This document shows positions 49,449-64,000 of a stretch of DNA of 64,000 nucleotides, in pieces. Positions within the stretch are counted from its first letter, which is position 1. Every line of letters begins with the position of its first letter. The DNA lies in assembly GCA_019638185.1 (NCBI GenBank), contig JAHBUH010000001.1:1-64000 (forward strand), in the 5' to 3' direction. The notes below the pieces were generated by a model that ran no database searches, was not told the origin of the DNA, and was given only the letters and a program-made list of their open reading frames with translations. The position numbers and the translations under genes are program-made. This DNA comes from Leadbetterella sp. GTDB taxonomy: Bacteria > Bacteroidota > Bacteroidia > Cytophagales > Spirosomataceae.

Positions 49449-50744
49449 TTATAGAGTCACCGCGTTGCCGTTTTGGGGCTTCAGGCGTACATCTTTTACG
49501 GCTCCGGAACCTTTCAGGTAAAACTGCACCCCGAGCAGATCGCCTAGTTTTCCGGTATAGGGCTCTTCTATCAGTACTTTCCCGTTTAAAGAGATCCGGA
49601 AAGTGTTATTTTGGGTAGCGACTTCCAGCTTACTCCAATCGCTGAGTTTTACACCCAGCTGGCTGAGCAGGTAAGAGTGGTCGCTCAGGGATAAATCAGT
49701 TTCTGCTACTTTCAGCCTGCTGTAGATAACGGCGTCAGGGCTTAGCAGGTTAAAGGTCATATTCCCCCGTGCGCCTAACAGATCCACACTCACGTCATAC
49801 GCCCAGATCCCCCCGATATCCGCATTATTAATCACTTCGGCCGTCAGCGTGAGATGATCAGCATCCATATCAAAGGCCTTGAAATACATGAAGGATATGT
49901 AGGGTTCTTCATGGGTCCCGGTTGTATTATGAGAACCGGTAAATTGCATGATGCCGTTTTTCATAAAAGACTCCCTGTGCAGGGGTATCTTATTATTTAT
50001 GCTTCCGTACCAGCCGTCAGACGGAATCACCAATACTACTTCCCGGACCAGGTTATCGTCCAGGAAAAGTTTGATGCGTGACTTTTTAGGAATGAATGTA
50101 CGGAGGCTGATTTCTCCACTGGCGTCTCCCAGGCTCACTTTTTCATTGTCTATAAAAATCCGGGCGGTCTTGTATTTCATGTTTCCCAGGTTATAGTCAA
50201 TCCGGATGTTTTTGGGGAAACCCTCGGAAGGGAGGACGTCTGCCGAGAAATGGAAATCGTCTGTGTTTTCGTGTTTTTGTAAATACCACGAGCTAGCGGC
50301 AAGGCACAGGAGCACCACTAAGGCCGCTGCCATCACCCGCCGGGAGGTGAACCATGACATTCCGCCCGGCGTGAGTGCAGTGGAAAGCGCCCCTTCCCGG
50401 TATTCGTCCCAAGTGCTTTCCGCGCCGGTCAGCACCAGGAAAGCCTCCATTACCTTATCGTCAAAGCTCATCTTGCTTTGCAAAAGAAACCGCCGGATGG
50501 AATCGGTGCTGATGGTCTTTTTAGCGGCGGTTAGCAGGCCGTATTTTTGGGTCAGGCGTTCGTCGATCTCCTCTTTGACATCTTCAAAAAAGCTGCTTTT
50601 ATTATGGATTTTCTCAAAACCTTCAAAATGGGAGCCATGCTGTAACCAGGCACCGGCCCAGTTTTTTTGGAACCAGGAGGTAACATGGGCGTGCAGTTGC
50701 AATACAGCATTTATATCCTCCTTTGAGGGGCGGAGACGGGCCAT
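49449..50744 (-). CDS. Membrane-anchored protein with regulator-like N-domain and periplasmic beta domain
   Basis: About 431 residues from the ATG at 50744. The cytosolic part (1-135) contains TISTDSIRRFLLQSK followed by an acidic helix and FLVLTGAESTWDEYR. This pattern recalls a small helical, HTH-like domain common in Bacteroidota. A single membrane helix (VMAAALVVLLCLAASSWYL) follows. The periplasmic part (about 170-431) is beta-rich with a laminin/concanavalin-like look (NNTFRISLNGKVLIEE, GVQFYLKGSGAVKDVRLKP). It is divergent from the kinase gene at 50859, 114 bp away. I recognise no named family; it may sense an envelope signal. Confidence 0.6.
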   Translation of the reverse strand: MARLRPSKEDINAVLQLHAHVTSWFQKNWAGAWLQHGSHFEGFEKIHNKSSFFEDVKEEIDERLTQKYGLLTAAKKTISTDSIRRFLLQSKMSFDDKVMEAFLVLTGAESTWDEYREGALSTALTPGGMSWFTSRRVMAAALVVLLCLAASSWYLQKHENTDDFHFSADVLPSEGFPKNIRIDYNLGNMKYKTARIFIDNEKVSLGDASGEISLRTFIPKKSRIKLFLDDNLVREVVLVIPSDGWYGSINNKIPLHRESFMKNGIMQFTGSHNTTGTHEEPYISFMYFKAFDMDADHLTLTAEVINNADIGGIWAYDVSVDLLGARGNMTFNLLSPDAVIYSRLKVAETDLSLSDHSYLLSQLGVKLSDWSKLEVATQNNTFRISLNGKVLIEEPYTGKLGDLLGVQFYLKGSGAVKDVRLKPQNGNAVTL

Positions 50745-50858
50745 GATGACAGGTTTATTTCTGCAAAATAACTGCAATAAAGCTAAAATAAAAGTGCTAA
50801 GGCCCTAAAAACTTCTTATGGTACCTTTGGCCCACTGATTTCCGTACTGCCTGTAAAA

Positions 50859-53852
50859 ATGAGAACCCCTAAAATAAACCGTTTCCTTCTCAGCCTTTTA
50901 TGGCTTTCAGCCTTTCCCGCTACGGGCCAGCGGTACCCCATAAAGGAATATACCATACATGACGGTCTTCCACAGATGCAGGTATTTGATGTATATGAAG
51001 ATAGCCGTGGCTATATCTGGGCTAATACTAATCTGGGCCTGAGCCGGTTTAACGGGGATAAATTTGAAAACTTTAATCTCAAAGACAGCCTGTTCAGTTA
51101 TTTCATACGGGATATCACTGAAGACTCACATCATAATATTTGGGTAAGATACCCTAACCGGGGGTATAGCCGTTTTGATGGCCGCACGTTTACTCATATT
51201 TTATTTCCATCAGGTGAACTGTCTGAAATTACGGAATACAGGGGGCGTATGGTTTTTATGCGAAACGACTCACTTTTCAGCTTGCACCATGATGTGCCCC
51301 GGTATACCGGGATCCGGCAGACGGTAAAAGAGACGCATTCCCAGCTAAAAACAGAACCCGGTAGCGGTGTTCTTTACTATCATACCTTTGAGTCTCTTTA
51401 TTACCTGGATGAAACGGCTAAAAGCTTCGTGAAATTGGACAGTATGAAGCAGCAGGGCGGAGCTTTCAGGCTGATTCAACAGGGTGGAAAACTGTTCTAC
51501 TTCAACAGGAGCAGTGAAGAGGTGTTTCTCCTGGAAGGCAAAACCCGGAGAAAAGTGTTCGGAATAAAAGACGGGCGGGCGGAAGTGTATTTTAACCCGG
51601 GAACTAACGTGTTCTTTTCGGATGATCATACCCGTCATTGGCTTTACAATATCCATAGTAACACGCTTGAAACGGTATTGATGGAGAAAGCATCCGATGT
51701 GACAACCTCTTTTCCTGCTGCTGCGGGACAGCGACTCTATTTTGGAACAGAAAAGGGATTGAAGTGTATTTTTGTAAATGGTTTCCGGTATTTTCCCCAG
51801 GAGGAGGTACCCTATGCCTGGGGAGTTACGGAAGATGACCGGAAAAATATCTGGATCAGTAGCTTTGGCCACCCCTTACAGAAGTTTGACGGGCATAGGC
51901 TCACCACCGTGAAAGGCTATGAGAAGGTAAGGGAAAGGGTACTGCTCAAAAACGGTGTGAAGCCTCCCATTATACCCAATGATTGGTATTTCTATCCCCT
52001 CAGAGACGTTTCCGGCAAGCTGTGGTTCCCCGATTTCAGGGGAGTTTTAACGGTAGGTAACGGCCGGTTTGATTATATAAGTTCAAAAGAAGGTTATTAT
52101 TTTTTCTCCCTGGCGGAAGACCGGAAAAGAAAAACGATCATAGGCGTAGGTCAGGGCGGGGCCATGCTGATCAGGAACGGCCGGACGGAAGTACTGAAAG
52201 ACACCTCCGGGATGTTTTATAAACGGCTGCTTATCTTATCTGCTGCTGTGACCCCTTCAGGAGATTATTGGTTAGGAGGCTATGGACTGACCCTGTATAA
52301 CCCGGAGACCCGGCGTTTTACATACTATGCCGCAAAATCAGGTAGAAACCCCTTTACAAATGTAGCCATCCTGTTTTTTGATCACAAAGGCGGGCTTTGG
52401 GCCGGTAGTCTGTGGGAGGGACTCCTGAAATACAACGAGAAAAGTGACCGTTTTGAACCTGTATTTGAAAAATACCTGAAAGACCGGCCTGCCACCTCCA
52501 TCATCCAGCTGTCGGAAAAATACCTGATGGTCACTAACGGCCGGGAACTGCTGGTACTGGACCTGGAAGCCTTCTATAAAAACGGGACGGAAAAGGTGGT
52601 AAAAGTATTGAATCAATATAACGGGTTCATTGGGATGGATACCGGGCAGAACGGCCTTTTTAAGGATTCAAAAGGGCGTATCTGGATTACCTCAGGAACC
52701 GTACTCTCCGTTTTAGACCCTGCGCAGCTCAGCCTGGAACCCCAACCCCTGAAAACCTTTATCCGGGGCATTAACGGCCAGAAAGTCCCCTTTGATTATG
52801 AAAAAAGCTTTGTCCCCGAAGTGCAGAACCAGGTCAGGGTTAAAGTGGAGTCCGTAGGGGAGGACAAGAGCGCGGTTTCGGAGTACAGCTACCGGCTGCC
52901 CGGCTATGCGGAAGAGTGGTCTGAATGGCAGCCGGATGACGTACTCTACCTGAACCAGCTTCCCTCCGGCAGCTATACCCTGGAAGTCAGGAGCCGGCAT
53001 GGGCTGGATGGGCTTCATTCGGTTACCCGTATGCAGTTTAGGGTGTCGGTGCCTTTATACCGGTCGCCGGCGTTTTATAAATATGTCCTGGTGGCCGGCG
53101 GCCTTTTACTGGTTTTTTTACTGTTCCTGGGCGTGAATAATTACCTGCAGGGCAGGCGGCTGCGCCGGCAGCAGGAGCGCTCTGCTGACCTTGATCGCAA
53201 AATGAAGCTGCTGCAGATCCAGACGGCGCAGTCGCAGCTGAATCCTCATTTTATTTTTAATGTGCTTCAGACCATGCAGAGCCAGATCCTGGCCGGCGAC
53301 CGGGAGGATGCCGCAGAAAATGTGGTGAAGCTCTCCCACCTGATCAGGGGTTTCCTGAATGCATCGGTTTTAGACGAGGAGGCGCCCATCAGCGTGCCGG
53401 GCCTGGAAATCCCGCTTTCAGAAGAGGTAGAAATGCTGAAAACCTATATTGAATTTGAGAAAGAGCAGAAAGATAATTTTGATTATGAGATCATAGCACG
53501 GCCTGAGCTTTCAGGTTTTAGGATTCAGCCGCTTTTGATCCAGCCTTTTGTGGAAAACGCCATCAAGCACGGTTTCCAGGATATGCGCTACCGGGGCCGG
53601 CTCACGATAGCGTTTCGTGAAGAAGACGACGAAGTACTGGTATGCACGGTGGAAGATAATGGCATAGGCATGGACGCGGCCCGCGAGATCCAGAAAAACT
53701 CCATTAAAAAGTATAAATCATTAGGAACAAAAGTGGTCATGAAACGGATAGCCAGCCTGAATGAAACCAGCTATAACATATCGGTAGAAACGAGCGTCCC
53801 TGCGGGCGGCGGCACCTGTATCAAGATACGAATGGACTATAAAGAGATATGA
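50859..53852 (+). CDS. Propeller-type sensor histidine kinase (LytS-like His_kinase)
   Basis: A 997-residue transmembrane sensor. After a signal peptide, the periplasmic part has repeated regulator-propeller motifs (VFDVYEDSRGYIWANTNLG, DITEDSHHNIWVR, GVTEDDRKNIWIS, LFFDHKGGLWAGS, GLFKDSKGRIWIT) and a Y_Y_Y-like domain (EYSYRLPGYAEEWSEW). One membrane helix (YVLVAGGLLLVFLLFLGV, about 741-763) leads to a coiled coil and a His_kinase domain with the phospho-His at about 797 (SQLNPHFIFNVLQTM) and an ATPase domain (FVENAIKHGF, VEDNGIGM). There is no receiver or AraC domain, so it signals through the LytTR regulator 43 bp downstream. Confidence 0.95.
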   Translation: MRTPKINRFLLSLLWLSAFPATGQRYPIKEYTIHDGLPQMQVFDVYEDSRGYIWANTNLGLSRFNGDKFENFNLKDSLFSYFIRDITEDSHHNIWVRYPNRGYSRFDGRTFTHILFPSGELSEITEYRGRMVFMRNDSLFSLHHDVPRYTGIRQTVKETHSQLKTEPGSGVLYYHTFESLYYLDETAKSFVKLDSMKQQGGAFRLIQQGGKLFYFNRSSEEVFLLEGKTRRKVFGIKDGRAEVYFNPGTNVFFSDDHTRHWLYNIHSNTLETVLMEKASDVTTSFPAAAGQRLYFGTEKGLKCIFVNGFRYFPQEEVPYAWGVTEDDRKNIWISSFGHPLQKFDGHRLTTVKGYEKVRERVLLKNGVKPPIIPNDWYFYPLRDVSGKLWFPDFRGVLTVGNGRFDYISSKEGYYFFSLAEDRKRKTIIGVGQGGAMLIRNGRTEVLKDTSGMFYKRLLILSAAVTPSGDYWLGGYGLTLYNPETRRFTYYAAKSGRNPFTNVAILFFDHKGGLWAGSLWEGLLKYNEKSDRFEPVFEKYLKDRPATSIIQLSEKYLMVTNGRELLVLDLEAFYKNGTEKVVKVLNQYNGFIGMDTGQNGLFKDSKGRIWITSGTVLSVLDPAQLSLEPQPLKTFIRGINGQKVPFDYEKSFVPEVQNQVRVKVESVGEDKSAVSEYSYRLPGYAEEWSEWQPDDVLYLNQLPSGSYTLEVRSRHGLDGLHSVTRMQFRVSVPLYRSPAFYKYVLVAGGLLLVFLLFLGVNNYLQGRRLRRQQERSADLDRKMKLLQIQTAQSQLNPHFIFNVLQTMQSQILAGDREDAAENVVKLSHLIRGFLNASVLDEEAPISVPGLEIPLSEEVEMLKTYIEFEKEQKDNFDYEIIARPELSGFRIQPLLIQPFVENAIKHGFQDMRYRGRLTIAFREEDDEVLVCTVEDNGIGMDAAREIQKNSIKKYKSLGTKVVMKRIASLNETSYNISVETSVPAGGGTCIKIRMDYKEI

Positions 53853-53895
53853 AATAGCTGATAGCTCAAGGCTCATAGCTTAAAACTTGTACATA

Positions 53896-54726
53896 ATGAA
53901 AACCCTGATCATTGAAGATGTGCAGAAAGACAGCGAACTGCTGCAGTTGCTGCTCACCCGGAATCACCCGGAAATAGAAATTACAGGTACGGCGCGCGGC
54001 GCATTAAGCGGGTATAAGCTTATTTTGGAGCAGCGGCCCCACCTGGTGTTCATGGATATCGAAATAGAAGAGCGGGGCACGTCATTTGATATCATAGACC
54101 GCCTGCTGAATGAGGGCATTCCCATCAACTTCGATGTGGTGTTTATGACTGCCCATAAGCAGTACGACTACACCACCCGGGCCTTTGAATATGCCGCCGT
54201 AGACTACATCACCAAGCCCATAGACCCGCACAGCCTGGCGCGGGCCATAGAGCGTACCCGTGACCGGCAGCAGCACAAAAACGCCGGCCGGGTTTTGCAG
54301 GAACTGGTGAATATCCTGAAAGCGGATGGCTCCAAAAGCTCCGTGCTCTCCCTGCCGTTGGCCCACCATGACCTCAGAATGGTTCAGATAGAAGACATCC
54401 GGTACATCAAAGCCGATTCCGTGGTATCCCACTTTTATATGTCTAACGGTGAAAAGATCATCGCTTTCCGGCCCCTTTCCGTTTACCGGAAACTCCTGGA
54501 AGCCGACCATAACTTCTTTTCCATCAGCCAGAGCCTCACCGTGAATTTAAACTACATGGAACGCTATAACCATAAACACAAAACCCTGAACCTCACAGAC
54601 GGCGAAGTGCTTCATGCCTCCCGCATGTACGGCACAAAACTATACACCCACCTCCGGGATACGAACCGGATAAAGCCGCCTTCTCTCCTGGAAAGAATCC
54701 GGCAGAAGCTGCTGACTTCGTTCTGA
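53896..54726 (+). CDS. LytTR response regulator
   Basis: A 276-residue DNA-binding response regulator. The receiver domain (1-120) has E7/D8, phospho-acceptor D54 (LVFMDIEIEERG), T85 (VVFMTAHKQ) and K107 (YITKPID). The LytTR domain (about 155-260) has MVQIEDIRYIKADSVVSHFY and FFSISQSLTVNLNYMERY. The start is the ATG at 53896; the frame opens earlier at a TTG (53887). It follows the propeller kinase and is followed at once by LytTR-type direct repeats (54731-54760), so it most likely controls the operon that begins at 54904. Confidence 0.95.
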   Translation: MKTLIIEDVQKDSELLQLLLTRNHPEIEITGTARGALSGYKLILEQRPHLVFMDIEIEERGTSFDIIDRLLNEGIPINFDVVFMTAHKQYDYTTRAFEYAAVDYITKPIDPHSLARAIERTRDRQQHKNAGRVLQELVNILKADGSKSSVLSLPLAHHDLRMVQIEDIRYIKADSVVSHFYMSNGEKIIAFRPLSVYRKLLEADHNFFSISQSLTVNLNYMERYNHKHKTLNLTDGEVLHASRMYGTKLYTHLRDTNRIKPPSLLERIRQKLLTSF

Positions 54727-54730
54727 AAAC

Positions 54731-54769
54731 TACCGGATTCTTTAAAAAATGACCGGATTCTATTTTTTT
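54731..54769. promoter_or_regulatory. LytTR-type direct-repeat operator, copy 1
   Basis: TACCGGATTC (54731) and GACCGGATTC (54751) are direct repeats with a 20-bp period, separated by TTTAAAAAAT and followed by TATTTTTTT. The stretch matches the one at 60034-60071 at all but a few positions. The second repeat lies 43 bp upstream of the -7 box in both cases. Confidence 0.8.
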
Positions 54770-54793
54770 CGTTAGAATGCGTGAAGATATTTT

Positions 54794-54801
54794 TAGGTTT
54801 G
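54794..54801 (+). promoter_or_regulatory. -7 promoter element (TAGGTTTG) for the barrel/OmpA operon
   Basis: TAGGTTTG matches TAnnTTTG. No TTG is present at the -33 position, which fits an activator-dependent promoter. The bases after it (AGAAAAACCAT) resemble those after the second copy (GAAAAAAACCAT at 60105). The leader to the ATG at 54904 is about 95 nt. Confidence 0.65.
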
Positions 54802-54903
54802 AGAAAAACCATGACCCCTCTGTAGAAGGAGCTTTGATCTACCCCCTGAATAACAAATAAATAAACAAACTATACGCCCTTTTGTACCCAAAAATAAAAC
54901 CCT

Positions 54904-56874
54904 ATGAAGAAGATCCTGCTTCTGATACTTTGGGCCAGTACCTCGTTAAGTGCCCAGTTTCTTCCTTTTATAGATAACTACTCCGGATCAAACCAGGTAT
55001 ATCTTAACCCCTCATCCCTGGCCGGATCGAAATGGAAATCGTATTTTAATGTGGCTTCAGGAAGTTTCCAGTCGTCGGTGACCGGCATCCGGAATGAAAT
55101 GATCCCTTTTTCCCAAAAAAACATAAAACTGGGTAAAAATTATCATACCCTTAGCAGCGTGAACATGGCAGGACCCGCCTTAATGGTGCAGCTGAGAAAT
55201 AACCATGCCTTTTCTATTAATACCCGTTATGTTTCCGCTCAGACTTTCCTGGGTACAGCGGCGTTTGCTTCATGGATAAACGGGAAAAATAAGGAGAGTG
55301 GTACGGTGTCTGATCCGGCCCTTTATCAAAATGCCTTTACGGAATACGGAATTTATTATGCCGCACCTGTATTTGATAAAGACCGGCATTACCTCAAAGT
55401 GGGAGCGGGGTATTCCGTATTAAAAGGAGGCTTGTACTCTGATTTTTACATTTCGGGAAATGTGGATTATGCGCTGAAGAATATGTCGTACTCCTTAAAC
55501 AGCTACCAGGCTTTCACTACGGCAGGGGATTACCCCACGGATTATAAATTTACGGATTACCTGCTGGGGAATTTCAATGCCGGAAGCGGCAGCGCATTTT
55601 CAGGCGGTATTACGTATGAGTTTAGGAAAGCTGAGCCCCGCTATCATTATACCATAGACGGCAAAGTAAGGAGTGATCCCGCTGAGAATGCCTACCTGGT
55701 AAAAGCCGGTATAGCCCTGAATAATGTAGGCACGCTGAAATATAAGGGTTCCGCTTACAGTGCCGGCCCCCAAACCGGGAACCTGTCTCTGGATCAACTG
55801 AAAGGAGGTACCGGGGGTGTGGTGCAGCTCCTGGAAGACCAACTGGATGCGGAGAGGGCCGAGAGCCGTTCAGAATATAAATTACCTCGTAACCTGGTGG
55901 TGCATGCGGATGTGAATTTTTATAAAAACTGGTATGCAGGAGTCATGCACGTTAAAACGGGTGCTTTCTCGAAGACGTACATCGGCCCCCGGAAGGAAAG
56001 TTATGAGAGCGCATTCAGTGTGATGGCCGTTTATGATTCTTTCCTGAAAAAGGTGGGCTGGGGAGCTAACTTCCGGGGCGGAATATTTACGGTGGGGTCA
56101 GAAAATATAGAAGGTTTCTTTAGTAAGAAGGCCACTTCCGCCCAGGTTTTTGTGGGGGTGGCGTTTTCCTTAAAGAGAGCCGTGAAACCTTCGGATGGGG
56201 ACGGTGACGGCGTATCTGACCGGAAAGATGAATGCCCTGCCATACCGGGCCTCTGGGCCTTCAAAGGCTGCCCTGATACGGATGGTGACGGTATAGAAGA
56301 CCGCGCTGACAACTGCCCTAACGAGGCCGGCCCCCGCGAGACCCGCGGCTGCCCGGATACCGACGGAGACGGGATTTTTGACAAAAACGACGCCTGTCCG
56401 AAGGCGGCCGGACCCCTTAAATTTAACGGCTGCCCGGATACCGATAATGACGGCATTCCGGATACCGAAGACAAATGCCCGGAGCAGGCCGGCCTGCCTG
56501 AAAACGGCGGCTGCCCGGATGCTGACGGGGACGGCTACCCGAATCAGGAAGATGCCTGCCCCGCTGAGAAGGGAATTAAGGCCCTGGGTGGCTGTCCCTT
56601 AGAGGTCAGCAGAGGGCAGGAGGTAAGTTCCGCCCTGGCAGAAGCTATACGGGAAGAACTGAGCATAAAAACGCGGATGTCTTCCGCGCTGGCTGAAAAA
56701 CTACAGCAGGCCGGCCCTCTGAATTTTGTGTTCACGGGTGAAAACCGGGGAAAACTCCTGGAGCTGGCTGGTATTTATAAAGATGAGCTGCCCGAGGCCC
56801 TGGCTGACCGGATCACGTTTACCGTAAGGCTGGCGGCTCAGAAAAATTATACCTTAATTATTGAAAAGAAATGA
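54904..56874 (+). CDS. Outer-membrane beta-barrel with thrombospondin type 3 repeats (DUF5723-like)
   Basis: A 656-residue protein. After a signal peptide (MKKILLLILWASTSLSA) comes a barrel of about 400 residues with the YLNPSSLAGSKWKSYFN opening and NHAFSINTRY strand typical of DUF5723-like and PorP-like Bacteroidota proteins. Residues about 429-560 are five calcium-binding thrombospondin type 3 units (GCPDTDGDGIEDRADNCPN and relatives, each with DxDxDG). In many relatives such repeats lead into an OmpA domain, but here a non-OmpA tail follows and the OmpA domain is in the next gene, which overlaps by 4 bp (ATGA). Confidence 0.85.
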   Translation: MKKILLLILWASTSLSAQFLPFIDNYSGSNQVYLNPSSLAGSKWKSYFNVASGSFQSSVTGIRNEMIPFSQKNIKLGKNYHTLSSVNMAGPALMVQLRNNHAFSINTRYVSAQTFLGTAAFASWINGKNKESGTVSDPALYQNAFTEYGIYYAAPVFDKDRHYLKVGAGYSVLKGGLYSDFYISGNVDYALKNMSYSLNSYQAFTTAGDYPTDYKFTDYLLGNFNAGSGSAFSGGITYEFRKAEPRYHYTIDGKVRSDPAENAYLVKAGIALNNVGTLKYKGSAYSAGPQTGNLSLDQLKGGTGGVVQLLEDQLDAERAESRSEYKLPRNLVVHADVNFYKNWYAGVMHVKTGAFSKTYIGPRKESYESAFSVMAVYDSFLKKVGWGANFRGGIFTVGSENIEGFFSKKATSAQVFVGVAFSLKRAVKPSDGDGDGVSDRKDECPAIPGLWAFKGCPDTDGDGIEDRADNCPNEAGPRETRGCPDTDGDGIFDKNDACPKAAGPLKFNGCPDTDNDGIPDTEDKCPEQAGLPENGGCPDADGDGYPNQEDACPAEKGIKALGGCPLEVSRGQEVSSALAEAIREELSIKTRMSSALAEKLQQAGPLNFVFTGENRGKLLELAGIYKDELPEALADRITFTVRLAAQKNYTLIIEKK

Positions 56875-59800
56875 GGCCACTTCTCCGGGTATGCCTGTTG
56901 CTGGGAATTTCGATATCCGTAGCAGCCCAGAAAAAGACCCGCCTGCCGGAACCCATTAATCTTTGGGATTATGAAGAATATGCCCCTTCTGTCAGTGCTG
57001 ACGGAAAAACGCTGATTTTCCAGTCGGACCGCTACGGCGTTTTGGTCAGCGGTGCTAAAAAAGTACCCGAGATTGATTCGGAAGGGCATAAAAACCGTAC
57101 ACTTAACCGGGAGGCCACGTCTTTTTTCGGGATTTATGAAACCCGGCTGCATCCCAGCGGCCAATGGAGCCGGCCCGAGCCGGTAGACGCCATTAACCGG
57201 TACAGCGCCGGTATGACCCCCGTAATGGGTGGCCCCAGCATCAGCTATGACGGTAATTACCTGTATTTCTTTGCCAATTTTCCGGATGATAAATCGGCTT
57301 ACGGTAAAGAAGACCTCTATTATTCGGTTCGTGAAAAATATGGGTGGAGTAAGCCCATTAACCTGGGACCCGAAGTCAATACCCCCGGTTATGAGGGTTT
57401 CCCCAGTATCTCATCGGATGGCCGGCACCTGTATTTTGTCAGGGAAGACCTCACTAAAAAGGCATTGGGCGAAGAACGGTGCTACCGGATCATGCGTTCG
57501 GAGAAAGATGCCGGCGGAAACTGGAAAAGGCCTATAGAACTGCCTTCTCCCGTCAATATGGATTGTGAGAAGGCTCCCCGCATCATGGCCGATAACAAAA
57601 CACTGGTTTTCTCTTCCATTAAAAAGAAGAACAAAGGGGGTTTTGATCTGTATATCAGCAGGCTGGGAGAGGACGGTCACTGGTCAGAACCCAAAGCCCT
57701 GGATTTTGTTAACTCGAAATATGCCGACCAGTCGGTGGCCATCAGTGCCTGCGGCGACGAAATGTATTATATTTCTAACGGGGATATTTACACCATCAGC
57801 ATCCCGGAAGAGCTTAGGCCCGAAAAGATGATGACCATCCAGGGTTTTGTGGCCGATGCTGAAAATCAGAATCCCGTTTCTACCCGGGTGGCACTCAGGG
57901 ACGTAAAGACCGATAAGATCATCGCTTCAGTAGAAACTAACCCCACTGACGGGAGATACACCTTACTGGCACCCCAGGGCGGGCTCTATGAGGTGGAAGT
58001 AGACCACCGTAATTACCGCACGGCCCGGAAAAAAGCAGATTTGCAGAACATTAACCACTGTGAAATTATCCGGAGTGACTTCCAGCTGGAAAAGAGCGGG
58101 GACCGGGCCCGGAGATCGGATATTATCATTGAAGAAGTGGCGGCTAACCCTTCCCCGGCAGCGTCAAAGCAGACCGTAAAAACCGATTCCGCCCGGGCGG
58201 AATTAACTTCCACCGGATCCGGGGTAGAAACAGAGGTCATTGCTGGCCGGCGTTCAGCCCCGAAAGTGGTCAATATCGTAGAAGAAGAAAGAGCACACCT
58301 GACAGAAGGAAAACAGGTGGTAACGGATTCACTCAAAGAAGCAGAGAAGGTAGCCAGAAAGGTAAATATCCCGGAAAAGAAGGTTATTCATACGATAACG
58401 CTCCTGGTACGCGATGGCGAAAATAATTCGGTGATTAAAGATGTAAAGCTTTCGGCGGATGGTGTTAAGTATGAATTTGATGCCGAAAGAAATGCTTTTG
58501 AAGTTAAAGTTTCGGAATCGGATAACTACCGTATCGTGGTGTCGGCACCCGGTTACCAGCCGGAAGAATACAGGATTCAGGATGTCAATGCCTCCAAAAA
58601 AGTGGTGGTACAGCTATACCCCGAGCTGCCGTCAAACCTCACCGTGATGGTTACCGATATTCATACCGGTGATGCTCTTTCCTCCACCATTGATATAAAA
58701 AGTGCTGTGGCCGGCTACTCCATGGAAAACCCCTCCGGGAAGAGTGTGATTGAGTTTAACCAGGCTCAGCAGATAGAATTAACCATACAGGCGCCCGGCT
58801 ATACCACCCTGAAAAAGGTGTTAAACATAGAGGTGGCTCCTGAGGGGCGCGTGTACCAGCTGGATGCCCGGCTGGAGAAGGTTAGCTATACCCTCAGGGC
58901 ATCCGCTATAGATAAAGAAACCCGCCAGGCGCTTACGACAGCGGAGTTTTATGTAAGCTCTCCCGATCATGCTAACCTGGAAACGGCTGCCCGCCCGGCA
59001 GGGGAATATGTTATTCCGGGTTTTGGTAAATACAGGGTCAAGAGCCTGGTTTCGGGCTACCAGGACCAATTTTTAGAACTGGAGGTAGATAAAAATATTA
59101 CGGAAGTGGTTTTTGAGATGGTGAAAAAAGCAAAAGCCAACAAAGAGATAGCCCTGCTTATCCGGGATGAATACACGAAGGAGCCACTGGTAGCTACGGT
59201 TAAAACCAGTGCCCGCCTGCTTCAGCAAAACCCGCCGGTCATCCAGTTGGAAGAAGGTGCTGCTGCCGAAGCAGAAATACAGGTAAACGCTTATCCTTCT
59301 CAAAAAATACAGTTGGACTACCGTACCTCCTCCGACCAGGTAGAGGTCAGCCTCAAAAAAGAACTGTACCCATTCCGCTTCCGGGTAATTTCTGAGGTGA
59401 ACCGGCGGGGACTGACCGAGGCCCGGATAAATATCCTGGAAGATAAAACGCGGGCACGGTTTGAAGTACATGACGGGGTGGCAGAAGCCCTGCTGGCACC
59501 GGGAAAAGAATATTCCATACTGGTGAGTGCTGAAGGGCACTCCGGCAGCCAGCTGAAATTCCAGACTCTCCAGGCCTTATACGATAACCTGCGGGAACGG
59601 ATCATTGCTTTGAAACCGGTGGCTACTGCGACCGCCACAGAAGAAAATAGCATCCGGATAGAGACCAAAGAATTCGGGGTGATCGAAAAGGGCCGGTCCG
59701 TGCAGTTGAATAACATCTATTTTGACCAGAGCAGCCCGGTTTTAAAGCCGGAATCGCACACCGAGCTGGATCACCTGGCCCGGGTTTTGGGCGATAACAC

Positions 59801-60029
59801 CACTATCCGGATTGAGGTACGGGGTTATACGGATAACCAGGGCGATTTTAATAAAAACATCCAGCTCTCCAAAGACCGCTGCCAGGCGGTCATAGATTAC
59901 CTGGTATCAAAGGGAATAGCCGCCGGCCGTATGGCTCCGGTGGGGAGAGGTCCGTTAGACCCTGTAGCGCCTAATAGCTCCGAAGAAAACCGCAGTAAAA
60001 ACAGGCGGGTGGAGTTTGTGGTGCTTTAG
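56871..60029 (+). CDS. OmpA-family protein with PD40 repeats and carboxypeptidase-like domains
   Basis: A 1052-residue envelope protein. After the signal peptide, residues about 35-315 contain PD40/TolB-type propeller repeats (APSVSADGKTLIFQSDRYG, GPSISYDGNYLYFF, FPSISSDGRHLYFV, MADNKTLVFSSIKKK). Several carboxypeptidase-regulatory-like beta modules follow (VSTRVALRDVKTDKIIASVE and later ones). The C-terminal OmpA domain (about 945-1052: NNIYFDQSSPVLKPESHTEL, IEVRGYTDNQGD, NRSKNRRVEFVVL) binds peptidoglycan. The layout recalls PorE-like T9SS proteins. It is coupled to the barrel gene, and the two probably form an outer-membrane to peptidoglycan bridge. Confidence 0.9.
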   Translation: MRPLLRVCLLLGISISVAAQKKTRLPEPINLWDYEEYAPSVSADGKTLIFQSDRYGVLVSGAKKVPEIDSEGHKNRTLNREATSFFGIYETRLHPSGQWSRPEPVDAINRYSAGMTPVMGGPSISYDGNYLYFFANFPDDKSAYGKEDLYYSVREKYGWSKPINLGPEVNTPGYEGFPSISSDGRHLYFVREDLTKKALGEERCYRIMRSEKDAGGNWKRPIELPSPVNMDCEKAPRIMADNKTLVFSSIKKKNKGGFDLYISRLGEDGHWSEPKALDFVNSKYADQSVAISACGDEMYYISNGDIYTISIPEELRPEKMMTIQGFVADAENQNPVSTRVALRDVKTDKIIASVETNPTDGRYTLLAPQGGLYEVEVDHRNYRTARKKADLQNINHCEIIRSDFQLEKSGDRARRSDIIIEEVAANPSPAASKQTVKTDSARAELTSTGSGVETEVIAGRRSAPKVVNIVEEERAHLTEGKQVVTDSLKEAEKVARKVNIPEKKVIHTITLLVRDGENNSVIKDVKLSADGVKYEFDAERNAFEVKVSESDNYRIVVSAPGYQPEEYRIQDVNASKKVVVQLYPELPSNLTVMVTDIHTGDALSSTIDIKSAVAGYSMENPSGKSVIEFNQAQQIELTIQAPGYTTLKKVLNIEVAPEGRVYQLDARLEKVSYTLRASAIDKETRQALTTAEFYVSSPDHANLETAARPAGEYVIPGFGKYRVKSLVSGYQDQFLELEVDKNITEVVFEMVKKAKANKEIALLIRDEYTKEPLVATVKTSARLLQQNPPVIQLEEGAAAEAEIQVNAYPSQKIQLDYRTSSDQVEVSLKKELYPFRFRVISEVNRRGLTEARINILEDKTRARFEVHDGVAEALLAPGKEYSILVSAEGHSGSQLKFQTLQALYDNLRERIIALKPVATATATEENSIRIETKEFGVIEKGRSVQLNNIYFDQSSPVLKPESHTELDHLARVLGDNTTIRIEVRGYTDNQGDFNKNIQLSKDRCQAVIDYLVSKGIAAGRMAPVGRGPLDPVAPNSSEENRSKNRRVEFVVL

Positions 60030-60033
60030 AAAA

Positions 60034-60071
60034 TACCGGATTCTTTAAAAAAATACCGGATTTTATTTTTT
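60034..60071. promoter_or_regulatory. LytTR-type direct-repeat operator, copy 2
   Basis: TACCGGATT occurs at 60034 and 60054 (20-bp period), separated by CTTTAAAAAAA and followed by TTATTTTTT. It is nearly identical to 54731-54769, begins 4 bp after the OmpA stop codon and precedes the collagen-like lipoprotein gene. Confidence 0.8.
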
Positions 60072-60096
60072 AAAAAATAGTCAGGAAAGAGGGAGT

Positions 60097-60104
60097 TAAG
60101 TTTG
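60097..60104 (+). promoter_or_regulatory. -7 promoter element (TAAGTTTG) for the collagen-like lipoprotein
   Basis: TAAGTTTG matches TAnnTTTG and begins 43 bp after the start of the second operator repeat, the same distance as in copy 1. The start site would be about 10-12 nt before the ATG at 60122. Confidence 0.65.
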
Positions 60105-60121
60105 GAAAAAAACCATTTGAT

Positions 60122-60907
60122 ATGAGACCAAATTTACTACTTTCAGCTGTATTGTCAGCTGCCCTTTTTATGTTCAGTTGTGAAGGACCCGAAGGTCCGC
60201 AAGGCCCTGCCGGTACTGCCGGTAAAGACGGCGTAGCCGGCACGAAGGGCGACAAAGGCGACAAGGGCGAAGCCGGCCTGAACGGCAAAGATGCCTCCTC
60301 TTCTGTAAACTCCACACCCTGGATCAAGCTGGATTTTAAGTCAGAAGGAGCTACCACCATTTATACCCAGAATAATACCTCTTTCGGGGCTATTTACCAG
60401 ACCTATGTAAATCTTAGTTTGAAAGATAAGTCGCAACCCCTCCTTACCAAAGAGATCATGGAACAGGGCATGTACCTGGTTTACATCAAATATAAGGTTA
60501 CAATGTATGATTCTGGGGAATCTTCCTACTACCTCGAAGATCGGATAATCGGTGGGGTAGGTACCGGAGCGACTAGCTCTTTCAAAATCCCTGGCCGGGA
60601 GACCAGTAAAGCAAGCGATTTTGCAAACCTCGTTTTCGGAGTTGTGGATTTAGGAGAGAAAACCTGGAGCCCTTATCTTTATTTCAACTCTCCCAGTCAG
60701 CAGGTGTATGAAAATAACCAATATGTGAATAAATCCACGGCACCTGAACTGCTGAATAAGAGCAATGCCTTTTACCGTGAACTCCTTTCCGCCAATGTGC
60801 CTGAGGTACGTTTAGTTACCGTAAAAGGTGCCTTAGCCGGCCGTCTGAAAAACATAGATTTTTCAGACTATGAGGCGGTTAAGAAGGCGTTTGACCTGGA
60901 AGATTAA
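60122..60907 (+). CDS. Collagen-like repeat lipoprotein
   Basis: A 261-residue lipoprotein (MRPNLLLSAVLSAALFMFSC). Immediately after the lipid-anchored Cys come about 12 Gly-X-Y triplets (EGPEGPQGPAGTAGKDG, TKGDKGDKGEAGLNGKD), enough for a short collagen-type triple helix that would make the protein trimeric. The C-terminal 200 residues form a beta-rich head of unknown function (YYLEDRIIGGVGTGATS). It has its own copy of the LytTR-type operator, so it is predicted to be induced together with the barrel/OmpA operon. Confidence 0.9.
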   Translation: MRPNLLLSAVLSAALFMFSCEGPEGPQGPAGTAGKDGVAGTKGDKGDKGEAGLNGKDASSSVNSTPWIKLDFKSEGATTIYTQNNTSFGAIYQTYVNLSLKDKSQPLLTKEIMEQGMYLVYIKYKVTMYDSGESSYYLEDRIIGGVGTGATSSFKIPGRETSKASDFANLVFGVVDLGEKTWSPYLYFNSPSQQVYENNQYVNKSTAPELLNKSNAFYRELLSANVPEVRLVTVKGALAGRLKNIDFSDYEAVKKAFDLED

Positions 60908-60936
60908 TTACCTCAGTTACATTTTTTCCGAAAGAG

Positions 60937-60959
60937 CAGGCGGAGTGATTCACCGCCTG
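60937..60959 (+). terminator. Hairpin terminator after the collagen-like gene
   Basis: CAGGCGG (60937-60943) pairs with CCGCCTG (60953-60959) around a 9-base loop, extendable by flanking AGAG/CTCT. The T-run is weak. Confidence 0.45.
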
Positions 60960-61028
60960 TCTCTTCCCGGCTTTAATCAACCCCTAAAATAAATCATCAT
61001 TCTTTAACCCCTTTAATAAACCGTTCGC

Positions 61029-61719
61029 ATGAAAAGAAATCTATTCTCTTTCGTAAGCCTTGCTGTATATCGCTGCGTTTGTATTGTGGCCGTGATGTGC
61101 TTTTATACGGGGGCGGCATTGGCGCAGTGTGATAACGCAATCCTACTCTTACAGGCGCAAGTGACTAATTTTTCCACGGACTACCCGGGGTGTACAAACG
61201 TGGGTAACTTAGCTATTAGTGGGAATGATATCACGAATTTGGATGGACTGTCCTCTATTCAGGCAGTAAACGGGGCCTTGAATATATATAACTGCCCTGC
61301 ATTAAAAGGTAAATTAGGTGGCGGATAAAATCCGGGGAGGCCGGAACACCCATTGGGCCGGCGGAGGCGTACTCTGCATTGGTAATGAGGAAGAGGTTCC
61401 TGTAACTCAGAAAGTGAAAAACGCCCGGCAAATCCCTGATGAAGAAACCCGGGTGGATAGTATTTCTACTGAAGGCTTTATGAAAGTAAGTGTGTCTCCC
61501 AACCCTGCTTCTGAAAATATACGGGTGGAAATACACAGTGGCAGCAATGGGGGAGAACTCCTGCTGACGGATTTAATGAGGAATGTAAAATTGAGAAGAG
61601 CGTATACGGGCAGCTCTACTCTACAGGATATTAACATCCGGAAATATCCTACGGGGCTTTACATTCTTAAAGTTAGTAGTAAGGAGACATTCAGAACAGT
61701 AAGAATTTTTAAAGAATAG
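61029..61719 (+). pseudogene. Decayed T9SS cargo gene (signal peptide + Receptor-L-like repeat, frameshift, sorting domain)
   Basis: The first frame (61029-61328) encodes a signal peptide and a Receptor-L/leucine-rich-like repeat (GNLAISGNDITNLDGLSSIQ, ALNIYNCPAL), then stops. In a different frame (61318-61719) lies a type A T9SS C-terminal sorting domain (VSVSPNPASENIRVEIHS, YPTGLYILKVSSKETFRTVRI). Together they look like the two ends of one secreted protein whose middle was deleted out of frame. The second half has no signal peptide, so it could not be secreted alone. If translated by frameshifting it would give a protein of about 220 residues. Confidence 0.65.
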
Positions 61720-61744
61720 CAAACGGTAAAAGGGAATAATTTGA

Positions 61745-61771
61745 AATAGCCGGGGGTATCTCCCGGCTATT
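61745..61771. terminator. Bidirectional hairpin terminator
   Basis: AATAGCCGGG and CCCGGCTATT form a perfect 10-bp stem with a 7-base loop, followed by a T-run on the plus strand. It separates the decayed cargo gene from the convergent Uma2 gene. Confidence 0.8.
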
Positions 61772-61788
61772 TTTTTCATTCCATCTCT

Positions 61789-63042
61789 TCAATCAAATAC
61801 CTCCCTCACCCCAAACCTCAGCCCCGTAAATAAAGAAGAACATACCTCATCCTCTTCTGTGAAGGGTGCCAACACCACATATTTACGGCCCTGAAGCACA
61901 TTAATAAGGATGACCTTATCTTCGGGATCTACCAGCCAGTATTCTTTTACGCCGTGCTCTTCGTAGATTTTATATTTTACGCCTACGTCTGTGGAGGCGC
62001 TTTGAGGAGTAAGGATTTCAATGACCAGGTCAGGCGTGGGCACCGGCTTATCTTTTTTAAGCGGATCAGATACCACGGCGAAATCTGGGTGAACTACGGT
62101 GAATACTTCATCATCTTCAGAATCCCGAAAGCAGAGGGCTGAGGGAGAGGTGATTAATTCAGAAGCTTTATTCTTAAAAAAAGGCTCTAGCAGGGAGGTG
62201 AGCTGCCGGGCTACCTTCTGATGGGCGCCAGGAGAGGGCGGGCCCATTCTGTGGATGTCTCCCTTAATCAGCTCCAGCCGGTCTCTGAAATCCCATTGAA
62301 GATAATCTGTATAAGTGTATTTCCCCTGGGGACCGGCCGGAAGGGGGATATCAGGACCGTAAGCCACTTCCGGTTCTCTGACTATATTTTCAAACCACTC
62401 AAACAGTTTCCTGTCAAAGGCTTCCCCCACGCTGAATTTCAATTCCGGGAACCGTACCGAGCTGACCTCTTCTTTTTCAGAGAAATGGTTTCCCGTATAT
62501 TTCCCGTTTTGAAGGGAGTACACGGTAATGGTCTTTTTAGAAGGATGCACAAACCAGTATTCTTTTATCCCGTTTTCTTCATACAGCCTGAACTTAAGCC
62601 CCATTTCCTTCTGGGTGTTACCGGGTGAAAGCACCTCCACCACCAGGTCAGGAGCTCCCAGGCACCCGCGCTTATCTATTTTATCCAGATCGCAGATCAC
62701 GCAGAGATCCGGCTGAACCACTGTATAGATCAGCTCATCTGCGGTTTGTTTTTCAGAATCAGGGAGCCTGACATCAAAAGGTGCCGCGAAAAAGGTGCAG
62801 GGCCGGCCTTTGAAGAAATTAAAGAAAGTACCGGTGAGAAAACCGGATACCGACTGGTGGGTAGGGCCGGGCGCCGGGCACATTTTGTGAATAAAGCCTT
62901 TAATCAGCTCCACTCTTTCTTCAAACTTCCAGCGGAAATAATCAGCAAAGGTGTACTGCCGGGAAAGATCCAGCTGATCCAGGGATAAAATTTCAGGAAT
63001 ATAAGCCACCTGGGGCTCCCGGGCTACGTTTTCAGATTCCAT
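61789..63042 (-). CDS. Second tandem Uma2 (DUF820) nuclease-fold protein
   Basis: About 417 residues from the ATG at 63042, chosen because it lies 20-25 bp after the -7 box and gives the same layout as the paralogue at 40554. An upstream start at 63108 would lie beyond the promoter. Two Uma2 domains are present: the first with VQPDLCVICDLDKIDKRG, GAPDLVVEVLSPGN and LYEENGIKEYWFVHP, the second with VHPDFAVVSDPLKKDK, TPDLVIEILTPQ and IYEEHGVKEYWLVDP. The catalytic Asp/Glu/Lys pattern is kept in both. Confidence 0.85.
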   Translation of the reverse strand: MESENVAREPQVAYIPEILSLDQLDLSRQYTFADYFRWKFEERVELIKGFIHKMCPAPGPTHQSVSGFLTGTFFNFFKGRPCTFFAAPFDVRLPDSEKQTADELIYTVVQPDLCVICDLDKIDKRGCLGAPDLVVEVLSPGNTQKEMGLKFRLYEENGIKEYWFVHPSKKTITVYSLQNGKYTGNHFSEKEEVSSVRFPELKFSVGEAFDRKLFEWFENIVREPEVAYGPDIPLPAGPQGKYTYTDYLQWDFRDRLELIKGDIHRMGPPSPGAHQKVARQLTSLLEPFFKNKASELITSPSALCFRDSEDDEVFTVVHPDFAVVSDPLKKDKPVPTPDLVIEILTPQSASTDVGVKYKIYEEHGVKEYWLVDPEDKVILINVLQGRKYVVLAPFTEEDEVCSSLFTGLRFGVREVFD

Positions 63043-63056
63043 AAGTTTTACATGTT

Positions 63057-63135
63057 TTCCCCACAAAGGTACAGCCCCCTCTTCCGCATTTTGCTTCCGT
63101 CCAGGCAAGAAAAAAGTTATCTCAAAGCAATAAAT
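63057..63135 (-). promoter_or_regulatory. Promoter block of the second tandem Uma2 gene
   Basis: The minus strand has a -7 box TACCTTTG (63071-63064). The upstream sequence, including AAAGCAATAAAT near 63125-63135 and CTTCCGT at 63094-63100, is homologous to the block before the 41822 gene. The GATAAG inverted repeat is less perfect here. Confidence 0.5.
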
Positions 63136-63139
63136 TCAC

Positions 63140-63766
63140 TTAAAACTCCACTTCGCCCAGCCCTTCCCGCACTACTTCAAAGTGGTCAGGATCCGTGCAG
63201 TCAATGATGGTGGAGGGAATAATGCCGCTCCACCCCCCGTCAATGATGATGTCAGCAATGTACTGGTTCTCTTCGTAAATGACCTCTATTTCATTCGGGT
63301 ATTCCAGGATGTTTTCCTCGTCGTACTTTACGGAAGAGGTGATAATGGGTTTCCCCAGTTCGCGTATCAGCGTTTCGGGGATATTATGGTCAGGAACCCG
63401 GATACCGATGGTCTTCCGGTTCGTTTGCAGGATCCGCGGCAGTTCATTGGTGGAAGGAAGAATAAAGGTGTAGGGGCCGGGCAGGTATTGCTTCATCAGC
63501 CGGAAGGCCTCATTGGAAACTTTGGCGTAGGTGGCGATATCGCTCAGGTCGTGGCACACGATAGAGAATTTGTTCTGGTTAGGCTTGATGCCCTTGATCC
63601 TGCACAGCTTCTCCACCGCCCGGGTGTGATAGCTGTTGCAGCCCATAGAATATACGGTATCGGTGGGATAAATGATGATCCCACCGTCTTCCAGGCACTC
63701 TACTACCCGTTTGATCTTCCGCATGTCCGGGTTACCCGGGATAATTTCTATGAGTTCAGCGGCCAT
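63140..63766 (-). CDS. Sua5/YciO/YrdC family threonylcarbamoyladenylate synthase-like protein
   Basis: About 208 residues from the ATG at 63766 (MAAELIEIIPGNPD). It has the family motifs GGIIIYPTDTVYSMGCN, KGIKPNQNKFSIVCHD, YLPGPYTFILPST, GIRVPDHNIP and a C-terminal SGIIPSTIIDCT. The enzyme makes the L-threonylcarbamoyl-AMP used for t6A37 of tRNA. The YciO-like branch is an alternative. It overlaps the end of the upstream peptidase gene by 11 bp. Confidence 0.88.
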   Translation of the reverse strand: MAAELIEIIPGNPDMRKIKRVVECLEDGGIIIYPTDTVYSMGCNSYHTRAVEKLCRIKGIKPNQNKFSIVCHDLSDIATYAKVSNEAFRLMKQYLPGPYTFILPSTNELPRILQTNRKTIGIRVPDHNIPETLIRELGKPIITSSVKYDEENILEYPNEIEVIYEENQYIADIIIDGGWSGIIPSTIIDCTDPDHFEVVREGLGEVEF

Positions 63767-64000
63767 TCGGTTTAGCGTTATGAAGGTCAGCATAATTGAT
63801 GACCAGGTTACAGAGCGTCCTCACCCCGTTTTTAAAGCCCGATTCGTCCAGGTAAAAATCGGGCGTGTGATGCGGCGCGGCTTTCTCCTCCGGTGTGCCC
63901 GCCGGCCGGCCACCCAGGAAAAAGAACACGCCCGGTACCTTCTCCTGGTAATAACTGAAGTCTTCGGCTCCCATCACGGCGGGAATCTCCCTGACCATAT
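63756..64000 (-). CDS. M20-family metallopeptidase/amidohydrolase, C-terminal part only
   Basis: The frame is open to the right window edge, so only the last 81 or so residues are visible. AVMGAEDFSYYQEKVPGVFFFLGG is the typical C-terminal signature of M20 amidohydrolases (hippurate hydrolase/aminoacylase type), with the metal-binding Glu in GAEDF. HHTPDFYLDE is the second conserved element. The stop codon overlaps the start of the YrdC gene. Confidence 0.85.
   Translation of the reverse strand, partial: MVREIPAVMGAEDFSYYQEKVPGVFFFLGGRPAGTPEEKAAPHHTPDFYLDESGFKNGVRTLCNLVINYADLHNAKPNGR

Follow-up and report, generated by a model that had tools for sequence, protein, structure and literature searches.

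Two matched putative LytTR-type operators in a kinase/regulator surface-protein gene cluster of Leadbetterella sp.

Does one LytTR regulator switch on two neighbouring sets of surface-protein genes in Leadbetterella sp.? The question is raised by the first 64,000 nucleotides of contig JAHBUH010000001.1 (assembly GCA_019638185.1, forward strand), referred to here as the window, which belong to a genome of 4.22 Mb in 39 contigs (completeness 95%). In this window, open reading frame (ORF) calls and Pfam matches place a kinase gene, a response regulator gene with a LytTR domain, a barrel gene, a PD40/OmpA gene and a collagen-like gene head-to-tail on the + strand (Table 1), and a nearly identical direct repeat precedes both the barrel gene and the collagen-like gene. 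Based on the position, geometry and uniqueness of these repeats, the kinase/LytTR pair probably activates two units together, the barrel/OmpA operon and the gene of the collagen-like lipoprotein.

Results

Two matched repeats at the same distance from predicted promoters

A prior reading of the window from its letters alone (the sequence-only reading) had claimed TACCGGATT-type repeats with a 20-bp period at 54731/54751 and 60034/60054, and a search of the window bore this out. Each pair consists of 9-bp direct repeats separated by an 11-bp spacer, and the 8-bp half-site is ACCGGATT. When up to 3 mismatches in 18 positions were allowed, the window contained 2 matches, compared with a mean of 0.05 in shuffled sequences, and 0 of 100 shuffles reached 2. 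The same reading described some 38 bp, T-run included, as almost identical; the two blocks indeed share 35 of 38 positions, the runner-up within the window (on the other strand) shares 25 of 38, and the best matches in 40 simulated windows share 22–25.

Both blocks precede a TAnnTTTG box, a Bacteroidota promoter element located at -12 to -5 (PMC9723704). The claimed distance of 43 bp at both sites was confirmed when measured from the start of repeat 2 to the start of the box, and 34 bp lie between the end of repeat 2 and the box in each case (54760-54793 and 60063-60096). Within 54700-54910 the + strand has a single such box, at 54794, and within 60025-60125 likewise a single one, at 60097, out of 30 on the + strand of the 64 kb; an equal box distance would arise by chance roughly 1 time in 2000, and more often in A+T-rich DNA. 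Identity is 9/9 in repeat 1, 10/11 in the spacer, 8/9 in repeat 2 and 8/9 in the T-run, then 9/25 in the 25 bp before the box, which are of the same length and different sequence, and 7/8 in the box itself. A shared block just downstream had also been claimed, and it is present with a shift (GAAAAACCAT from 54803, GAAAAAAACCAT from 60105). That the ends are alike while the diverged middles have equal length points to selection on the boxes and their distance. With boxes at -12 to -5, transcription would start near 54806 and 60109, both operators would be centred at -61, and the predicted leaders would be 98 and 13 nt long.

The first repeat adjoins the regulator gene as proposed, but it starts 4 nt past the stop codon rather than after 5 bp; the second likewise starts 4 nt past the stop codon of the OmpA-like gene. 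The description of these sites as the only two sizeable gaps of the cluster holds between the kinase and collagen-like genes; a 121-bp gap (60908-61028), which contains no ACCGG, comes next.

The sites are confined to this locus

The genome-wide motif search that the sequence-only reading had proposed found two exact copies of the 8-bp half-site pair at the set spacing, both in this cluster. Three copies were found with up to 1 mismatch and 15 places with up to 3 mismatches in 18, compared with 1 for a reversed control. Eight of the 13 places outside the window were examined; seven lie inside called ORFs, and the single non-coding one (L006, 2 mismatches in 18) has no TAnnTTTG box near it on either strand. 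A scattered repeat family is ruled out by these counts (2 exact copies, 3 with at most 1 mismatch, 7 of the 8 looser places examined in ORFs), since the sole exact copies in the genome are the two sites described here.

Half-sites combined with a -7 box were found only at these two sites among 390 genomes of the order and 395 of the phylum. Exact half-sites occur in 3 of 222 family genomes, the window's own included, and the spacers of the other two (L065, L066) are unrelated. A separate 19-base exact scan of viral contigs matched 3 stretches. A search for related loci yielded a single weak hit (28%), and the 10 of 164 plasmid tblastn matches listed were 27-31% identical.

The neighbouring protein is a LytTR response regulator

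The product of the gene at 53896 contains receiver (Response_reg, 9.4e-15, 55.2 bits, cut-off 30.2) and LytTR (1e-8, 35.7 bits, cut-off 22.6) domains that both score above the Pfam cut-off, which makes it a LytTR response regulator by definition. Its structural model (predicted local distance difference test score (pLDDT) 83.5) was compared with known structures. Full-length ComE is the top match by E-value, with two domains that are not superposable as one body (root mean square deviation (rmsd) about 15), and the LytTR structures of AgrA match with template modelling scores of 0.81-0.87 by target length and an rmsd of 1.5-1.9. As modelled, the regulator has the LytTR fold.

Comparison with known LytTR sites

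The canonical LytTR site is a pair of 9-bp direct repeats spaced 10-13 bp apart, and the majority of LytTR regulators are activators with binding sites upstream of -35 (PMC11347149). The repeats are mostly 12 bp apart, in a minority of cases 11 or 13, lie a few bp upstream of -35 and are poorly conserved in sequence (PMC6193735). Both sites in the window have 9-bp repeats with an 11-bp spacer upstream of a predicted core promoter, and the sequence-only reading was therefore right that their geometry, with paired direct repeats about two helical turns apart, matches that of published operators.

Among the closest published counterparts are two Bacteroides LytTR operons, of B. thetaiotaomicron and B. 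ovatus, that resemble LytTR Regulatory Systems (LRS). Their predicted repeats, TCCGGTATTCA/ACCGGAAATCA and TCCGGCATTCA/ACCGTAAATCA, lie 11 bp apart (PMC6193735, Table 3) and are of TCCGG/ACCGG or ACCGT type, followed by 11 bp, TGTA or TGTG, 19 bp and TATCTTTG. These operons share with the present sites a CCG core, the 11-bp spacing, a Bacteroidota promoter and 34 bp between the repeat and a TAnnTTTG-type box. They differ in that their repeats are 11 bp long with a 22-bp period, as opposed to 9 bp and 20 bp here; their regulator sits in the membrane and has a membrane protein as its partner, whereas a kinase and a receiver-LytTR regulator are encoded here; and their repeats precede the regulator's own operon, whereas those in the window precede two predicted target units in place of self-control.

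The agr promoters P2 and P3 of Staphylococcus aureus differ from the present ones in being of the sigma-70 type and in having another half-site, which for AgrA is ACAGTTAAG-like. The half-sites of BtsR and YpdB of E. coli also differ from those of the window. The likeness to agr P2/P3 lies in a direct repeat pair centred near -60, which in agr is bound by a LytTR dimer, the AgrA repeats being at about -60 (PMC4227749). The sites of HdrR and BrsR, regulators of Streptococcus mutans LRS, are likewise 9-bp direct repeats that lie immediately before the promoter with 11-12 bp between them, but these regulators are paired with an inhibitory membrane partner and control their own operon (PMC6193735). 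An LRS is defined by such a partner and the lack of a kinase, and here a histidine kinase gene precedes the regulator. In this respect, the locus resembles BtsS/BtsR and YpdA/YpdB of E. coli, which also combine a LytS-type kinase with a LytTR regulator, but respond to pyruvate and target transporters (PMC5552118, PMC4847170).

The recognition segment, relatives and congeners

Several observations weigh against control by the neighbouring regulator. The genome encodes 28 LytTR domains, so the neighbour is not the sole candidate binder, and its own domain scores lowest among them. At the most conserved LytTR motif, FhRhHRS (PMC4227749), the regulator reads FFSISQS, with R/H/R replaced by S/S/Q; R is present in 51 and H in 43 of 62 aligned rows, an alignment that counts the window's regulator twice and in which row L112 is misaligned. 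No copy of the repeat was found in the window upstream of the kinase gene, and a sigma-70-like match at 54749-54778, at chance frequency, overlaps repeat 2 of site 1. In the five nearest LytTR relatives, the stretches examined (which leave out the DNA before the kinase in L016 and L017) have no 20-bp repeat with up to 1 mismatch in non-coding DNA. The operator is also absent upstream of all 11 barrel homologues (8 with an OmpA-like gene alongside) and from the three barrel/OmpA operons examined in congeners. Finally, 27 congeneric LytTR loci gave 1 hit at period 20, no commoner than other periods.

Similar variants of the motif are found in all five nearest relatives (L015-L019; FFPISQS, FFSISNS, FFPISQS, FFSISSS and FSSVSNS), and is thus a trait of the group, each member of which adjoins a kinase similar to that of the window. 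AgrA reads FFRCHNS, which shows that FhRhHRS is no strict requirement. As R, N and S at these places in AgrA have been shown to contact DNA (PMC4227749), a particular half-site would be unsurprising for a variant regulator.

Relatives of the regulator are few. At 1e-40, among 121 family genomes, they were found in the window's own and in 5 of the other 120 (best, 42% identical), and at 1e-45 in the window's genome and 1 of 390 order genomes. Weak 7-of-9 pairs follow the LytTR gene in L015, L016 and L019, a sixth, more distant relative (L054) has a AGGATTTAC/AGGATTTAG pair across the end of its gene, and the barrel homologue L061 has an unrelated 20-bp pair, CAAAAGCAA/CAAAATCAA. Conservation of the operator was thus looked for, and not found, among family genomes, LytTR relatives and barrel homologues. 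In the window's own genome, 20-bp repeats lie by 3 of 28 LytTR genes, the window's included, compared with 0.55 expected; across 40 LytTR gaps, 3 were found at period 20 and 3 at period 21 (0.55 and 0.32 expected), and periods 14, 15, 17, 25 and 30 likewise gave 3-4 as raw counts, without a computed expectation. The enrichment of 20-bp repeats near LytTR genes in this genome is weak. Because relatives are few and lack the operator, the regulator-operator pair appears, within the set searched, to be particular to this species; the case for linking the two rests on position, geometry and uniqueness.

Other candidate elements were seen in these comparisons. Three congeners (L054, L055 and L056, in G009, G003 and G008, respectively) have a conserved element, CCCCACAAATTTATTATTCGGTAACC, ∼70 nt before the barrel ATG. 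Its core, AATTTATTATTCGG, occurs 2-4 times per genome in 5 of 9 congeners, at 14 places that are all outside called ORFs, and is reversed before the kinase in L054; it was not found in the window's genome. This element is possibly a different operator for the same barrel/OmpA operon. In genome G000, an exact 9-bp repeat, GATTTTAGG, with a 20-bp period lies directly before a LytTR-only gene (108-aa ORF; L091, 1814-1842, contig C23), with a related copy 25 bp further on, and is likely an autoregulatory LytTR operator. Another pair with this period, AGCGACGCA/TGCGACGCA, lies in the gap before a LytTR regulator gene of the same genome (L077, 962-990, contig C21).

Features of the cluster

The features are listed in Table 1. 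The start of the OmpA-protein gene overlaps the stop of the barrel gene, and the model of the barrel protein is too weak for naming any family. Beyond the cluster, a short ORF in 61029-61719 starts with a signal-like segment and matches Recep_L weakly, below the cut-off; in another frame it is followed by a type IX secretion system (T9SS) sorting tail (TIGR04183), as if a secreted surface protein had been broken or shortened. On the - strand, 61789-63108 is a single ORF with, by eye, two apparent tandem domain copies, which we take to be Uma2-like.

Table 1. Genes and predicted regulatory features of the cluster
Positions	Strand	Feature	Basis
50859..53852	+	Sensor histidine kinase: Reg_prop propeller, Y_Y_Y, His_kinase (PF06580), HATPase_c	Pfam, ORF call
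53896..54726	+	Receiver + LytTR response regulator, proposed binder of both operators	Pfam, model
54731..54759	+	Operator 1 (putative): TACCGGATT / GACCGGATT direct repeat, 20-bp period	Repeat search
54794..54801	+	TAnnTTTG -7 box, promoter 1 (predicted)	Box scan; start placed near 54806
54904..56874	+	Probable outer-membrane barrel protein, thrombospondin type 3 repeats	Pfam TSP_3; low-confidence barrel model, pLDDT 59
56871..60029	+	PD40 / carboxypeptidase-regulatory / OmpA protein	Pfam, ORF call
60034..60062	+	Operator 2 (putative): TACCGGATT / TACCGGATT direct repeat, 20-bp period	Repeat search
60097..60104	+	TAnnTTTG -7 box, promoter 2 (predicted)	Box scan; start placed near 60109
60122..60907	+	Collagen-like protein, lipoprotein-type signal (LFMFSC, by eye)	Pfam Collagen 1.9e-6, ORF call

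Discussion

The claim of the sequence-only reading that one regulator activates both units draws support from the geometry of the sites, the domains of the neighbouring regulator and the confinement of the sites to this locus, whereas the comparison with relatives is neutral to negative. In our judgement, the two blocks are very likely LytTR-type operators; if so, there is a good likelihood that the adjacent regulator binds them, and a regulator so bound would very likely act as an activator. We propose that the kinase senses a signal and would phosphorylate the neighbouring regulator, two molecules of which would occupy the two ACCGGATT half-sites, one per repeat. With a centre near -61 and about two helical turns between them, the bound molecules would sit on the same side of the helix. 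From there they may bring RNA polymerase to the promoters, which contain a -7 box but show no clear -33 element on inspection by eye. Transcription of the collagen-like lipoprotein gene and of the barrel/OmpA operon would then be switched on together, as a small local surface regulon.

The most substantial alternative is that the operators serve a different LytTR regulator, or several, among the remaining 27. The number of LytTR domains in the genome and the unusual recognition segment of the neighbour speak for it, but exact sites occur only in the neighbour's own cluster, one of them 4 nt past its stop codon, and further targets would be expected of a distant regulator; we regard this as unlikely. 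It is more doubtful still that the regulator blocks the promoters from these sites. CoxC, a LytTR protein, does repress from three direct repeats overlapping -35 (PMC11347149), but here 34 bp separate the repeats from the -7 box, which places them ahead of the core promoter, like the sites of most LytTR activators.

The blocks might instead be intrinsic terminators of the upstream genes, in which CCGG pairs with CCGG ahead of the T-run. Their placement 4 nt past each stop codon and the T-run fit such a role, as does the fold of site 2 (-7.9 kcal/mol, z -1.56). The case is weak, given that the fold of site 1 does not surpass those of shuffled sequences (z -0.09); moreover, the stem common to both sites is mainly four CCGG pairs, a terminator scan picked neither site, and termination would not require the 20-bp direct repeat to be exact or its spacing from a -7 box to be constant, all of which leaves this reading very improbable. 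Least probable of all is a recent copy of a promoter segment without a special regulator: the identity of 35/38 is compatible with a recent common origin, yet the DNA from T-run to box is unrelated (9/25) while the ends are alike and the distance is kept. A structured RNA was also considered and rejected, as folds are near those of shuffles and 50000-64000 contains no Rfam family.

Co-activation by the kinase/LytTR pair would make this locus a clear but ordinary instance of an established type of gene switch. Such an architecture has precedents, and comparable repeats are among the predictions for Bacteroides; what distinguishes the window's case is its targets, its divergent regulator and the precise sequence of its half-site. 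We suggest tentatively, as somewhat less than an even prospect, that a divergent LytTR subfamily (FFSISQS, FFPISQS, FFSISNS) continues to recognise tandem half-sites with a CCGG core despite the loss of R and H. In the present case the half-site would be ACCGGATT, repeated with a 20-bp period, and the regulator would act at TAnnTTTG promoters from position -61 to control a species-specific barrel/OmpA-like/collagen-like surface regulon.

LytTR domains are plentiful in the genus, with 11 to 51 matches per genome in 10 genomes, the window's own included. The published Bacteroidota LytTR sites that we found, which need not be the only ones in print, are those predicted for the two Bacteroides operons (PMC6193735). 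Two matching sites beside one regulator offer a concrete, testable half-site, spacing and promoter distance, and the CCG core and 34-bp distance common to the window and the Bacteroides predictions hint at a geometry that may be phylum-wide.

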